In this document: piece by piece, positions 13,343 through 18,329 of the stretch | How positions within the stretch are numbered: position 1 is the first letter of the stretch | How the letters are laid out: each line of letters starts with the position of its first letter | Assembly: GCF_000427685.1 (NCBI RefSeq) | Contig: NZ_KE386573.1 | Location: forward strand, 2,340,938 to 2,404,937 | DNA: 64,000 nt | Source of the DNA: Haloplanus natans DSM 17983 | Lineage (GTDB): Archaea > Halobacteriota > Halobacteria > Halobacteriales > Haloferacaceae | Direction of reading: 5' to 3' | Position numbers and translations under genes: made by a program | The notes under the pieces: generated by a model | Databases searched by the model: none | Told to the model about the DNA's origin: nothing | The model's input: the letters and a program-made list of their open reading frames with translations, nothing else

Positions 13343-13852
13343 TCATATGTAGTCCGTGAACTCCACGTCGCCGGCGCTCGGGGCTCGATCACCGTCGACG
13401 ACGGCCTCGATGTCGGCGGCCACGTCGGCGGGTGTCCGGTCGGTCGTGTCGATTTCGTAGACGTTATCGAGGCCGTGGCGGTCGACCGCTTCGGAGAGGA
13501 TCACGTCGAGCGCCTCGCTCTCGGCGTTCTCGGTCGCTTTCGCCTCGTCGGCGCCGCGCTCTCGGAGGCGGTCGGCGAGGGCGTCGGGCCGACACCGAAG
13601 GACGACAACCCGGTCCGCGTCGAAGTGGTGAGCGAGGTGGGACTCCGCGACGCCCGACCAGTCGCCGATAGCTTCCCGGACGGCGTCGAGGTCGGCGACC
13701 AGGGAGTCGCGGTCGTCGTCGCGTTCGGACCACAGGCCGGCCTCGCGGATCAGGTCGTTGAGGTGGATCACCTCGGCGTCGAGCAGGGTCGTCGCCGTCG
13801 TCTTCCCGGTGCCGGGAGTGCCGGTGACGGCGACCCGAAGGTCGTCGGTCAC
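13343..13852 (-). CDS. Adenylate kinase family protein (AK6/Fap7 type)
   Basis: A small P-loop nucleotide kinase of the AK6/Fap7 family, linked in eukaryotes and archaea to 40S/30S subunit maturation as well as adenylate kinase activity. It has 169 residues. Walker A is GTPGTGKTT (residues 11-19); VVVLRCRPDALADRL and NAESEALDVI are typical of this family's base-binding and lid region. The start is GTG 13852, which overlaps the hisC stop as GTGA, so the two are translationally coupled. The neighbour pairing with hisC looks organisational rather than functional. Confidence 0.9.
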   Translation of the reverse strand: MTDDLRVAVTGTPGTGKTTATTLLDAEVIHLNDLIREAGLWSERDDDRDSLVADLDAVREAIGDWSGVAESHLAHHFDADRVVVLRCRPDALADRLRERGADEAKATENAESEALDVILSEAVDRHGLDNVYEIDTTDRTPADVAADIEAVVDGDRAPSAGDVEFTDYI

Positions 13853-14931
13853 ACCCGGACCTCCGCGAGGGCGTCGTTGAGTACCTCGACGGCGTGGGGC
13901 GTGGTCTCGCGGGTGCCACAGGAGACGCGGATGCAGTCCGGGAGGCCGAAACTGGTACAGTCCCGGACGATGACGCCCAGGCGCTTGGTCGTCTCGGCGA
14001 CGGCGGCGGCGTCACCGACTTCGGCGAGGACGAAGTTACCGCCGCTCTCCCACGTCGGCGCGTCGAGATGCTCGCGGAGGTAGTCGCGGGCCCAGCGCGC
14101 CGTTTCGACCGTCCGTTCGAGGTGGTCGTCGTCGTCGAGGGCCGCGAGGGCGGCCCGACACCCGACTTCGCTGGCGGCGAAGGGCGTGTTGACGCGGGCG
14201 TAGGCGTCCGCCCACGCATCGGGGACGACGCCGTAGCCGACGCGCAGGCCCGCGAGGCCGTAGGCCTTCGAGAACGTCCGCAAAACGGCGAGATTGTCGT
14301 GGTCGTCGAGGAGACCGATCGAGGAGGGGGCGTCGGTGTACTCCCCGTACGCCTCGTCGACGACGACGAGGGTGTCCTCGGCAACGGCGTCGGCCAACTC
14401 GACGACCGCCTCGCGGGAGAACTCGGCGCCGGTCGGGTTGTGCGGCGACGTGAGATAGACCATCCGTTCGCCGTCGTAGGCGTCGAGGACGGTGTCGGCT
14501 GTCTGTGCGAAGTCCTCGGCCTTCCGGAGCGGATAGGACGCCACGTCGCCGTGGTGGTACCGGGCGCTCATGCGGTAGTACGAGAAGCCCGGTTCGGGCA
14601 CGAGGACACTGTCACCGGGATCGAGGAAGGCCCGCGAGAGGTAGTCGATGGCGCCATCGGCGCCGGGAGTCACCCACACCTGCTCGGGCGTCACGCCCCA
14701 GCGGTCGGCGACGGCCTCGCCGAGGTCGGTGTGTGAGGCCTTGGGGTAGACGCCGACGGTCGGCGCAGTCTCCCGGATCGCGTCGATGGCGGCCGGACTC
14801 GGTCCGTGTGGGTTCTCGTTCGACGAGAGTTTCGTGAGGTCGTCGGGGTCGATTCCCAGTTCGCGGGCGACCTCCTCGGCGCCGCGGCCGGGGACGTACG
14901 GCGAGAGGTCCGAAAGATCCCGTGGTTGCAT
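13849..14931 (-). CDS. hisC: Histidinol-phosphate aminotransferase
   Basis: PLP enzyme of histidine synthesis, converting imidazole-acetol phosphate to histidinol phosphate. It has 360 residues from ATG 14931 (MQPRDLSDLSPY). The lysine that binds PLP is Lys222 in TFSKAYGLAGLRVGY; SSNENPHGPS, TSPHNPTG and VVDEAYGEY are the other fold-type I motifs. A TATA-like box lies 27 bases before the ATG, so hisC can be expressed independently of the tube-like genes upstream. It overlaps the AK6 gene by 4 bp. Confidence 0.95.
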   Translation of the reverse strand: MQPRDLSDLSPYVPGRGAEEVARELGIDPDDLTKLSSNENPHGPSPAAIDAIRETAPTVGVYPKASHTDLGEAVADRWGVTPEQVWVTPGADGAIDYLSRAFLDPGDSVLVPEPGFSYYRMSARYHHGDVASYPLRKAEDFAQTADTVLDAYDGERMVYLTSPHNPTGAEFSREAVVELADAVAEDTLVVVDEAYGEYTDAPSSIGLLDDHDNLAVLRTFSKAYGLAGLRVGYGVVPDAWADAYARVNTPFAASEVGCRAALAALDDDDHLERTVETARWARDYLREHLDAPTWESGGNFVLAEVGDAAAVAETTKRLGVIVRDCTSFGLPDCIRVSCGTRETTPHAVEVLNDALAEVRV

Positions 14932-14953
14932 GGTCGGACGATGCGGACGCCGA

Positions 14954-14963
14954 CGCTTAAGCG
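14954..14963 (-). promoter_or_regulatory. Probable TATA box of hisC
   Basis: The palindrome CGCTTAAGCG is centred 27 bases before ATG 14931, at the extreme 3' end of the first tube-like gene. It suggests a leaderless hisC transcript separate from the tube-like pair. Inferred from spacing. Confidence 0.45.
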
Positions 14964-15463
14964 TGATTGTCGTCACCGACGATGGCCTCGATACCGTCGT
15001 GAGCCAACTCCAGCGTCTCCGTCGCGGCGGCCGGCCGGTCGGCGACGAGCTCCGGGCCCGACCACCGGGTCGGCGTCGCATCGCGACAGCGCCACCCTCG
15101 CGCCCGCTCGCCCGCGTCGTCGAGGAGGAACACCCGCACGTCCCGCGTCTCGACGCGTCCGGTCACCCAGCCCTGGAGCCAGTCCCAGAGCCGTCTGTCG
15201 TCGGTGACGCCGCGACGGAGCGTGAGCGGTGGCGAGGCGGTTCGGCGGCGCTGTACGGACGGCACGGGGCCGATGGCGTGCCCGAGGCGGTCGCCCCAGT
15301 CCACGTCCACCTCGGACGCCGCATCCGCGTCTTCCTCGGCGGGACGGGCCTGCACGCGCACCGAGAGGCCCGTGACCTCGGTGAACCCCAGCGGGGGGCG
15401 GTCGTCACCGAGGTCCACGTCGAACCGGTGGCGCACGTAAGGGTCGACGGGCCGGTCGCTCAT
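14957..15463 (-). CDS. Phage tail tube-like protein (T4 gp19 / TIGR02241 type), second of pair
   Basis: A 168-residue protein resembling inner-tube subunits of contractile injection systems. Recognisable features are an opening beta strand RHRFDVDL, GFTEVTGLSVRV (the GF.EVSGL-like motif), PLTLRRGVTDDRRLWDWLQGW near residue 80, VFLLDDAGERARGWRC, and the closing ETLELAHDGIEAI. An acidic insertion follows GLSV. It overlaps its upstream partner by ATGA, so they should be made together, perhaps as a hetero-tube. No sheath, baseplate, spike or AAA+ terminator gene is present in the 64 kb. Family call is confident; biological role unknown. Confidence 0.82.
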   Translation of the reverse strand: MSDRPVDPYVRHRFDVDLGDDRPPLGFTEVTGLSVRVQARPAEEDADAASEVDVDWGDRLGHAIGPVPSVQRRRTASPPLTLRRGVTDDRRLWDWLQGWVTGRVETRDVRVFLLDDAGERARGWRCRDATPTRWSGPELVADRPAAATETLELAHDGIEAIVGDDNHA

Positions 15464-16014
15464 TTCTTCGATTTCGACGGCTTCTCGTGTCTCGTCGGGC
15501 GCGTCTCGGGCTTACCCGCGGACGTCTCGGTGGTCTCCGTCCCACGGCGCGATCCGCCGTCGGTCTCGCCCCCACCGTTGGCCCGTTCGAACCCTTCGGA
15601 GACGATTTCGAGCGTCTCGATGGCGACGGCGGATCGGTCGGCGGCGAGGGTCGGGGCCTCGTACGTGGCGGGCCAGGCGTTCCGGAACTCCCAGCGCGCC
15701 GCCGGCGTGCCCTCCTCGTCGAGGAGGACAACGGCGATCGATCGCCGCGCCTCGTCCACTTTTCCCTGCTCGACCAGCCGGCGCCACTCGGCGAGCGCGA
15801 TGGAGTCGGTCGTGACGCCGGAGCGCAGTTCGAGTGGGCCGTATCCGTTCAGTCCGGCGAGCTTTCGTGGCGTCGGCGGCTCGTTGCCCTCGCGGTACTC
15901 GACGACATCGGTCGTCGTCTCGGGGAGTCGACAGTAGCTGAACCCGGCCTTCGCTACCCCGTCTATTTCGAGGAGGAAGCGTGCGACACGGAGGGGGCCG
16001 TGCCTGTCAGGCAT
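15460..16014 (-). CDS. Phage tail tube-like protein (T4 gp19 / TIGR02241 type), first of pair
   Basis: A 184-residue paralogue of the next gene and the better match to the injection-system tube family: ARFLLEIDGVAKAGFSYC, VVEYREGNEPPTPRKLAGL, LRSGVTTDSIALAEW, AVVLLDEEGTPAARWEFRNAWP and ETLEIVSEGFERA follow in the expected order. Residues about 150-184 are a low-complexity tail ending in a lysine-rich run (KPSKSKK), unusual for haloarchaeal proteins, which are generally acidic. Start ATG 16014. The gene follows the GMC dehydrogenase gene by 106 bp on the same strand, so co-transcription with the dehydrogenase operon is possible. Confidence 0.87.
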   Translation of the reverse strand: MPDRHGPLRVARFLLEIDGVAKAGFSYCRLPETTTDVVEYREGNEPPTPRKLAGLNGYGPLELRSGVTTDSIALAEWRRLVEQGKVDEARRSIAVVLLDEEGTPAARWEFRNAWPATYEAPTLAADRSAVAIETLEIVSEGFERANGGGETDGGSRRGTETTETSAGKPETRPTRHEKPSKSKK

Positions 16015-16120
16015 CGTCCCGGCCCGGTCGGACGGCGGTCGGTGTCGGTCCTCGTGAACTGATATCGTGTCTCATTTCGGGTGAGGGGACACCTTCCACT
16101 CTCTTGAAACTTTCCGCACC

Positions 16121-17788
16121 CTACAGCCAGTCGTCGAGGCGGTCGGCGAGCCGACAGCTCAGGGCGGCGATGGTGAGGGTGGGGTTCATCGCACCGCCGG
16201 TGGGGAAGACGCTGCTGCCGGCGATCCAGAGGTTGTCGCAGTCGTGGGCGCGGCAGTCGGGGCCGACGACGCTCTCGGCGGGGTCGGTCCCCATTCGGGT
16301 CGTGCCCATATGGTGGTAGGCGGGGCCGGTCTCGTCGGGGCCGACAACCCAGTCTATCTCCGCGCCGAGTTCCTCCAGAACCGCACGCTGGACCTCGTTG
16401 GCCCGCTCGATGGCCGCGCGGGTCTCCGGGCCGACCGACCAGCGCACGTCGGGGACGGGGTTGCCGTGGTCGTCAGTCGTCGAGCGATCGAGAGTGATGC
16501 GGTTCTCAGCGCGGGGGAACTGCTCGACGAGGCCGCCGACGGCGAGGTGGGTGCCGTAGGAGTCCCGGAGGGAGTCGAGGAGGGAGTCTCCCCAGTCGTC
16601 GGCGTGGAGCGCCTCGATGACGGGGGAGGGACCTGCGTAGTTGAGAAACTCCAGTTTGACGCCCGGCAAGGGGTCAGTGCCGTCGTAGAGGGCGTGACAC
16701 TCGGTCGTGTTGAAGCCGACGTGGTTCTGTCGTGTCGGGCGGTCGATCCGGCCGCCGACGCCCGCGAAGCAGTGATCCATGAAGTATCGACCCACCGCCC
16801 CGGAGGAGTTGGCGAGGCCGTCCGGGTGGGCGTCGGAGGCGGAGAGCAGGAGGAGGCGGACGTTCTCGACGCCGCCACAGGCGAGGACGACGGCGCGGGC
16901 CTCCTGTCGGTGCTCCGCGCCGTCGGGGGTGGCGTAGACGGCGGCTTCGATCCGCTCGCCACCGTCGGCCGCGGGGCGGCTAGGCGTAGACCGTCGGTCC
17001 CCGCCGTCGTGTTCGAGTCGCTGGACGGGCGCGCGGTCGATGACCCGTGCACCCGCCGCCTCCGCGCGGGCGACGTGGCGCTCGGCGGTGTATTTGGCGC
17101 CCGACGGACAGACGGGTTTGCAGGTGCCGTAGCCGACACAGGCCGACGCGTCGTCGTACGGCTCGGAGTTGCGGGCGTTGGGCACGGAGTGGGTGGGGAG
17201 GCCGAGCGACTCGCAGGCTTCGGCGAAGATGGCGTCGCTGTGAGAGGGCGGGAACGCGGGGAGCGGAAAGGGCTCCTCGCGGGGCGGGGCGAAGGGGTTG
17301 TCGTCGGCGCCGGCCACGCCCAACTCCCGTTCGGCCTCGGCGTAGTACGGGCGGAGGTCGGCGTAGTCGAGGGGCCAGTCGACGCCGACGCCGTGGCGGG
17401 AGCGGAGTTCGAAATCGCGTTCGTGCAGCCGCATCACCATCCCCTGCCAGTGGAGGGTCGAGCCGCCGACGCCCTTGACGCGGGCCGCGTTCAGCGGGTA
17501 GCCCCTCGGTCCGCTGGAAGTGTATTCGTCGCGCTCGCCCCCCATGCCCCAGAGGCCGTCGGCGGCCTCACCGTCTTCCCCGGGGGTCGCCGACACTCCC
17601 CCGTCGACGCCGGGGCGGACGTGCGCGTCGAGTTGCTCGGTCCGGTCGTCGAGGTCGAACCGGGGGCCGGCGTCGAGGACGACGACATCGTGACCGGCCT
17701 CGGCGAGGCGGGCGGCGACGATGGCGCCCGCGGGGCCGGCGCCGACGATGCACACGTCGGCGCGGGGCGACGGCGACCGATCAGCCAT
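16121..17788 (-). CDS. GMC-family oxidoreductase (gluconate/glucose-type dehydrogenase large subunit)
   Basis: FAD-dependent alcohol or sugar dehydrogenase, 555 residues. The N-terminal FAD fold shows DVCIVGAGPAGAIVAARLAEAG (split here: DVCIVGAGPAG then AIVAARLAEAG) and GVGGSTLHWQGM; the C-terminus has AYHHMGTTRMG with the catalytic His and the closing GGAMNPTLTIAAL. The segment ACVGYGTCKPVCPSG (Cys-X5-Cys-X3-Cys) could hold an iron-sulfur cluster as in membrane-linked FAD sugar dehydrogenases. Start ATG 17788 overlaps the upstream subunit-3 gene by 8 bp. It has no signal of its own, so export by riding on the Tat-signal-bearing partner is expected. Confidence 0.88.
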   Translation of the reverse strand: MADRSPSPRADVCIVGAGPAGAIVAARLAEAGHDVVVLDAGPRFDLDDRTEQLDAHVRPGVDGGVSATPGEDGEAADGLWGMGGERDEYTSSGPRGYPLNAARVKGVGGSTLHWQGMVMRLHERDFELRSRHGVGVDWPLDYADLRPYYAEAERELGVAGADDNPFAPPREEPFPLPAFPPSHSDAIFAEACESLGLPTHSVPNARNSEPYDDASACVGYGTCKPVCPSGAKYTAERHVARAEAAGARVIDRAPVQRLEHDGGDRRSTPSRPAADGGERIEAAVYATPDGAEHRQEARAVVLACGGVENVRLLLLSASDAHPDGLANSSGAVGRYFMDHCFAGVGGRIDRPTRQNHVGFNTTECHALYDGTDPLPGVKLEFLNYAGPSPVIEALHADDWGDSLLDSLRDSYGTHLAVGGLVEQFPRAENRITLDRSTTDDHGNPVPDVRWSVGPETRAAIERANEVQRAVLEELGAEIDWVVGPDETGPAYHHMGTTRMGTDPAESVVGPDCRAHDCDNLWIAGSSVFPTGGAMNPTLTIAALSCRLADRLDDWL

Positions 17789-18329
17789 CCCCGCCCTCCG
17801 CGTCCATCGAGGCGCGTCGGTAACTCTCGGTGCCGCCGGGGTAGGCGATGGGGTTCTCGATGCCGACCAGCCGGCCGCCGGCCGGCGACGCGTAGAAGGC
17901 ATAGAGGAGTTCGTTCACGAGGTGGAACCGAATCCGCTCGGAGAGGTAGCCCTCGGGTTCGGGAGCAGCCACGTCGACCCCGAGGTCCCGGAGGAGGCCG
18001 TCGCGGGTCGATCGGTCGAGGTCGGCGAGGGGTGCATCGTGCCAGTCCCGCGCCGTCGCGTCGAGGTCGGCGGCGACGGCGAGGACATCGTCCCGCCGGC
18101 CGTCCGGAAGGCCGTCGACGTACGTCCCGACGAAGGCGTCGACACCCGTCGCCGCGGAGGGGTAGACCGTCTCCGCGACGGCGACGAGGATGTCGAGACC
18201 GTCGACAGCGTCGTTTTCGGGCGAATCGACGGGCGCACCGTCGGCGTCGTCGGGGGTCGCCACGGCGGCGACTCCGGCGACGCCGGTGGCGGCCAGCGCA
18301 ACCAGCGCGTCCCGTCGGCTCAGGTCCAT
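17781..18329 (-). CDS. Gluconate 2-dehydrogenase subunit 3 family protein, Tat-exported
   Basis: A 182-residue small subunit that partners GMC dehydrogenases. The N-terminus MDLSRRDALVALAATGVAG is a twin-arginine signal followed by a hydrophobic stretch, so the folded complex is likely delivered outside the membrane. The mature part matches the family in the VAETVYPSA and GLPDGRRDD stretches and in a helical body that wraps the large subunit. Its gene leads the operon with a leaderless TATA box and overlaps the GMC gene by 8 bp. The electron acceptor is not encoded nearby; a halocyanin-type carrier is a guess. Confidence 0.82.
   Translation of the reverse strand: MDLSRRDALVALAATGVAGVAAVATPDDADGAPVDSPENDAVDGLDILVAVAETVYPSAATGVDAFVGTYVDGLPDGRRDDVLAVAADLDATARDWHDAPLADLDRSTRDGLLRDLGVDVAAPEPEGYLSERIRFHLVNELLYAFYASPAGGRLVGIENPIAYPGGTESYRRASMDAEGGDG

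Follow-up and report, generated by a model that had tools for sequence, protein, structure and literature searches.

An adjacent pair of Cis1-like and Cis5-like tube genes retained without an injection system in Halobacteria: a possible two-component sheath-less nanotube

The window analyzed in this study, a stretch of 64,000 nucleotides from the genome of Haloplanus natans DSM 17983, contains two adjacent genes for tube subunits of the type found in contractile injection systems (CIS), here called A and B (Table 1). To our knowledge, the tubes of injection systems are known solely as components of a contractile machine with a sheath. The locus raises the question of what two tube genes do where the rest of the machine is missing, and a preliminary description of the window had offered three options, namely a sheath-less tube or scaffold, an accessory to the dehydrogenase encoded next to the pair, or parts of a system encoded elsewhere.

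Table 1. Features of the tube-gene locus and its surroundings, in positions of the window.
Feature	Position	Strand	Remarks
hisC	13849..14934	-	downstream neighbour with its own promoter
CTTAAG box, probable hisC TATA element	14956..14961	-	overlaps the B stop codon
Tube subunit B, 168 aa, Cis5-like	14957..15463	-	gp19 3e-22; TIGR02241 1.3e-20
Tube subunit A, 184 aa, Cis1-like	15460..16014	-	gp19 3.7e-37; TIGR02241 2.6e-35
Micro-ORF MRHDISSRGPTPTAVRPGRDDA followed by a stop, 22 codons, probably leaderless	16007..16075	-	stop overlaps the A start (ATGCCTGA)
Promoter-like box GGAAAGTTTCAA	16104..16115	-	about 31 nt before the ATG of the micro-ORF
GMC oxidoreductase	16121..17902	-	neighbour, outside the module; without the pair in 4 congeners, missing beside the pair in one
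Gluconate_2-dh3 (gluconate 2-dehydrogenase subunit 3-like), Tat signal	17781..18329	-	neighbour, outside the module

Both reading frames were found where they had been described, with an overlap of 4 nt (ATGA) on the minus strand, and in profile searches the Phage_T4_gp19 and TIGR02241 matches of A and B lie far above the cut-off. The pair can be accepted as two ATGA-coupled tube genes. The NCBI equivalog models CIS1 and CIS5 also match A (7.9e-32) and B (6.9e-21) respectively, yet both matches are far below the cut-offs of these models. The solved relatives of the two proteins belong to the inner tubes of contractile injection systems, and the best Foldseek matches of the AF2 monomer models were likewise injection-system tube proteins. 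Both proteins are predicted to possess the gp19/Hcp fold of the inner tube protein of CIS, eCIS and T6SS; a different fold, which would have spoken against the initial assignment, was not found. The A model (mean pLDDT 83) consists of a tube fold with an inter-ring hairpin (residues 1-147) in which the hairpin is confidently predicted (strands 33-40 and 48-58), followed by a variable Lys/Arg-rich tail (residues 148-184). In the B model (mean pLDDT 81) most of the core exceeds 90, the pLDDT of residues 40-70 is about 53-59 and the hairpin is absent. No signal peptide was matched on either protein.

The lysine-rich tail of A had been singled out as an oddity for a halophile. It was rejected as a functional mark, being fast-evolving (dN/dS about 0.65), nearly gone in one congener and missing in several other pair lineages. 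The motif G.G.PQGID is common to the A tails of two genera (L107-L114 and L032), and the tail is otherwise variable.

A and B are the only gp19 genes in the H. natans genome (3.80 Mb, 99.8% complete), in which the other machine parts were sought by family searches. The contractile sheath (PF04984) was absent from the whole of this genome and from all 25 pair-bearing genomes of the census described below. The Pvc16 tube cap and the CIS-ATPase winged helix were absent from all 16 pair-bearing genomes tested, that of the window included, and were detected in all three control genomes that have a machine. Baseplate_J was absent from 15 of the 16, again including the window genome, and its positive controls were matched. 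A strong Baseplate_J match was observed in a pair-bearing congener (G005, C1:2321531-2321944), far from the pair of that genome and possibly within a provirus. Spike (VgrG-like) and LysM/Cis7 adaptor genes were not seen near the pairs. The lack of sheath, baseplate and AAA+ genes, at first noted over tens of kilobases, extends in this way from the window to the entire genome, and no sheath gene or tube-less cluster was found elsewhere in it, which refutes the option of a system encoded elsewhere for the components tested (sheath, Baseplate_J, Pvc16 and CIS-ATPase winged helix). An origin from a provirus or the tail of a tailed virus was also rejected, as an IMG/VR scan returned no relative of the pair, the closest entries in phage records are only 28% identical and the neighbours are cellular housekeeping genes.

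The distribution of tube genes was surveyed in a sample of 391 Halobacteria genomes. A gp19 gene was found in 80 of them, a sheath gene in 50 and both in 47; the sheath frequency is consistent with the 12% of 350 genomes given by a published sheath-first survey (PMC11566945). The 33 genomes that have gp19 without a sheath comprise 25 with an adjacent A-B pair and eight with a single gp19 gene. Six genera (g1, g2, g30, g32, g57 and g89) in two families (f1 and f4) account for the 25 pair genomes, so that 25 of the 80 tube-bearing genomes, or about a third, have an orphan pair in place of a machine. The full clusters examined have a further gene between their two tube genes. Because the published survey was queried with the sheath protein Cis2 (PMC11566945), sheath-less pairs were undetectable by it, and no report of such pairs was found in the literature searched. 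The single sheath-less gp19 genes (L099, L102, L104, L105, L115, L116, L117 and L120) fall outside the pair clades, and those of L117 and L120 have an S74-chaperone protein as neighbour, together with very large ORFs. The reverse case, a sheath without any gp19 match, was observed in L134 (G107), L135 (G258) and G396.

The neighbours of the pair in H. natans agree with the preliminary description in their families, in the 106 bp that separate the stop of GMC, in the Tat-exported dehydrogenase operon, from A, and in the promoter that hisC appears to have of its own. The CTTAAG box, its probable TATA element, is also present upstream of hisC in four congeners that lack the pair. Within the genus, seven of the eight pair-bearing congeners have GMC upstream of the pair (in one of these with an intervening gene). 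In other genera the neighbours are unrelated: threonine-synthase-like and HHH proteins in Halorubrum and Halobellus, ribonucleotide reductase in Halorientalis, a P-type ATPase or GH3 together with a TRAM protein in genus g32, and ABC permeases in G012. GMC and A are separated in one congener by a gene for a camelysin-like (Peptidase_M73) protein (L026:6884-8458). Clustering of the neighbours across lineages revealed no third gene common to the pair loci.

These comparisons bear directly on the suggestion that the pair is an accessory to the Tat-exported GMC dehydrogenase, for which the recurrence of GMC upstream of the pair in the genus is the supporting observation. In four congeners (L136-L139), subunit 3, GMC and hisC are contiguous and the tubes absent, with a GMC-hisC spacing of about 35-100 bp, whereas one congener (G007, L030) has the tubes without subunit 3 or GMC. 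Since the operon occurs intact without the tubes, the tubes occur without the operon, and the pairs of other genera have no dehydrogenase beside them, a role of the pair as accessory to the dehydrogenase is refuted. The pair also has an upstream box of its own, and we attach next to no probability to this reading. The sheath-less tube or scaffold is the sole one of the three original options left standing.

The promoter-like box upstream of A can be aligned in eight congeners, including one without GMC, and is most divergent in L026, L030 and L031. A micro-ORF precedes A in all 28 pairs tested at a limit of -170 (shuffled mean 3.8, maximum 9), under a criterion that is also passed by about a quarter of the other genes at the same loci; in the 29th pair (L121) only a looser match was found, stopping 11 nt before A. 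Micro-ORFs of 16-49 codons were observed before A at L025-L031, L032, L039-L045, L047, L097, L101, L107-L114 and L118. The distance from the ATG of the micro-ORF to that of A ranges from 43 to 67 in the genus of the window and from 73 to 139 in the Halorubrum group, and the frame is always kept; as the search criterion itself favours a conserved frame, what counts as independent evidence is that the ATG keeps a conserved position with respect to the box. The encoded peptide is not conserved between lineages and in lineage IV shows no constraint (pN/pS about 1.1), which rules out a conserved peptide there. Given a peptide that is unconstrained in one lineage, the micro-ORF is likely to be a leader for translational coupling to A.

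In a tree of 131 proteins, all 29 A proteins of the pairs fall into a single clade within haloarchaeal Cis1 (SH-aLRT 99), and the 29 B proteins are likewise all united in a single clade, near Cis5 (SH-aLRT 90). A tree of B alone, with the loop columns removed, splits pair B from Cis5 at 100/98. Several Cis1 proteins of haloarchaea share 58-68% identity with A. The identities of A and B correlate (r=0.91), as expected under co-inheritance, a correlation that by itself is no proof of contact between A and B. The dN/dS of the core within the genus is 0.27 for A and 0.23 for B, close to the whole-gene values of 0.21 for hisC and 0.19 for GMC. Purifying selection acts on both folded cores; the loop of B (0.63) is a loose region like the A tail. 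At least four changes between presence and absence of the pair were counted on the tree of the congeners, and the module is therefore dispensable in this genus. The pairs have a common origin, their two genes are co-inherited, and the module is independent of its neighbours and of any injection system.

The two subunits differ in what became of the inter-ring hairpin. A carries the Cis1-type hairpin with EYREGN...RKL, and the REGN/T motif occurs in 28 of the 29 pair A proteins and in 49 of the 54 Cis1 proteins. The EGG-N motif of the Cis5 hairpin occurs in 51 of 54 Cis5 proteins versus none of the 29 pair B proteins. Residues 39 to 73 or so of B stand in its place, and the replacement loop is variable, with a median of about 51 residues versus 33 in Cis5; Trp-containing stretches are present in several lineages, in some of them acidic and rich in Trp (for example SPWWDFGDWFDQ). 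The corresponding hairpin of the pyocin and T4 tubes passes beneath the neighbouring subunit to bind the lower disk (PMC6088184), that of phage Mu mediates the inter-ring contact (PMC11915804), and in Hcp a mutation of the equivalent loop abolishes stacking, as cited in PMC5874247. Taken with the motif counts and the models, these roles suggest that A keeps the contact toward the next ring and B has lost it. From related systems, and not from these proteins themselves, we infer that the next ring on that side of B would be the baseplate side of a normal machine.

We slightly favour the explanation that the pair is a stand-alone module, taken once from haloarchaeal Cis1 (inner tube) and Cis5 (tube adaptor) and kept without the machine as a sheath-less tube on a base of B. 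After this single domestication, A would form hexameric rings, stacked by way of the retained hairpin, and B would form a base ring of which one face takes A; the contact of B toward the baseplate would be lost, as expected once baseplate and spike are gone. This arrangement of A on B is proposed on the grounds that the hairpin is kept in A and lost in B and that no baseplate gene was found. Such an assembly would amount to a sheath-less ring or short tube, capped at one end and, as no signal peptide was matched, presumably cytoplasmic, with expression from the pair's own promoter via the leader micro-ORF. As the two genes have long been retained together without the machine, a ring or short tube with a different job is probable. 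A role as scaffold or holder of cargo in the cell is a guess, and B may fail to assemble with A altogether. The complete proposal of a two-component sheath-less nanotube of A rings on a B base, evolved once and acting as a scaffold or cargo body or as a blocker of injection-system assembly, is tentative, and we would put it clearly below an even chance.

Other explanations differ from this stand-alone module in the part that they give to B or to the pair as a whole. A alone may assemble, with B as a regulator or cargo adaptor acting through its new loop; the heavy alteration, variability and low model confidence of that loop and its Trp-containing stretches are in keeping with such a role, but the core of B is under the same constraint as that of A and the two genes are always adjacent, and we regard this explanation as unlikely. 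A decaying remnant of an injection-system cluster, functionless today, is quite improbable: the patchy distribution within the genus and the fast evolution of tail and loop would fit decay, whereas descent of the pairs in six genera from one origin instead of repeated decay, reading frames intact in every pair, the low dN/dS of both cores and a leader architecture common to the lineages argue against it.

The orphan subunits could also serve interference or immunity, by mixing into the tube of an incoming or newly acquired injection system and poisoning its assembly, in which case genomes would keep either the machine or the pair. None of the 25 pair genomes has a sheath, compared with 50 of 391 overall, where an overlap of about 3 is expected (hypergeometric P 0.029, ignoring relatedness), and genus g32 has the pair in eight genomes and the machine in two, never together. 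The patchy presence in the genus of the window resembles that of conflict genes, and the similarity of A to Cis1 points the same way. The statistics are however weak and uncorrected for phylogeny, no precedent is known to us, and it is in the attacker, not in the target, that tube and sheath operate; we consider such interference rather unlikely.

Among known systems, the pair resembles the haloarchaeal CIS, or archaeal T6SS, of Halogeometricum borinquense (cis1-16; PMC11566945), in that A falls among Cis1, B on the Cis5 side and A precedes B. It differs in that searches of the genome found neither a sheath nor a cap, baseplate-J or the winged helix of the CIS-ATPase, in the missing gene that usually separates Cis1 and Cis5, and in the missing Cis5 hairpin of B. 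Extracellular CIS tube proteins (Afp1/5, Pvc1/5, Alg1/5 of AlgoCIS and All3324/All3323 of Anabaena) share the predicted fold and are linked to A and B by the best structural matches, but they act within a sheathed machine, and the pair is far below the CIS1 and CIS5 equivalog cut-offs. The fold is also shared with Hcp, the T6SS tube, including copies with altered extended loops, and changes in this inter-ring loop of Hcp alter stacking and function (PMC5874247). Unlike Hcp, A and B are two distinct subunits that are always paired, and the rest of a T6SS is missing from the genome.

Sheath-first surveys (PMC11566945) miss this whole class of orphan pairs, which is found in 25 of the 80 tube-bearing genomes. 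The pair consists of two small, intact genes that can be directly expressed and their products imaged. If six genera maintain the pair for its own sake, it would clearly exemplify the domestication of one module of the injection machine.
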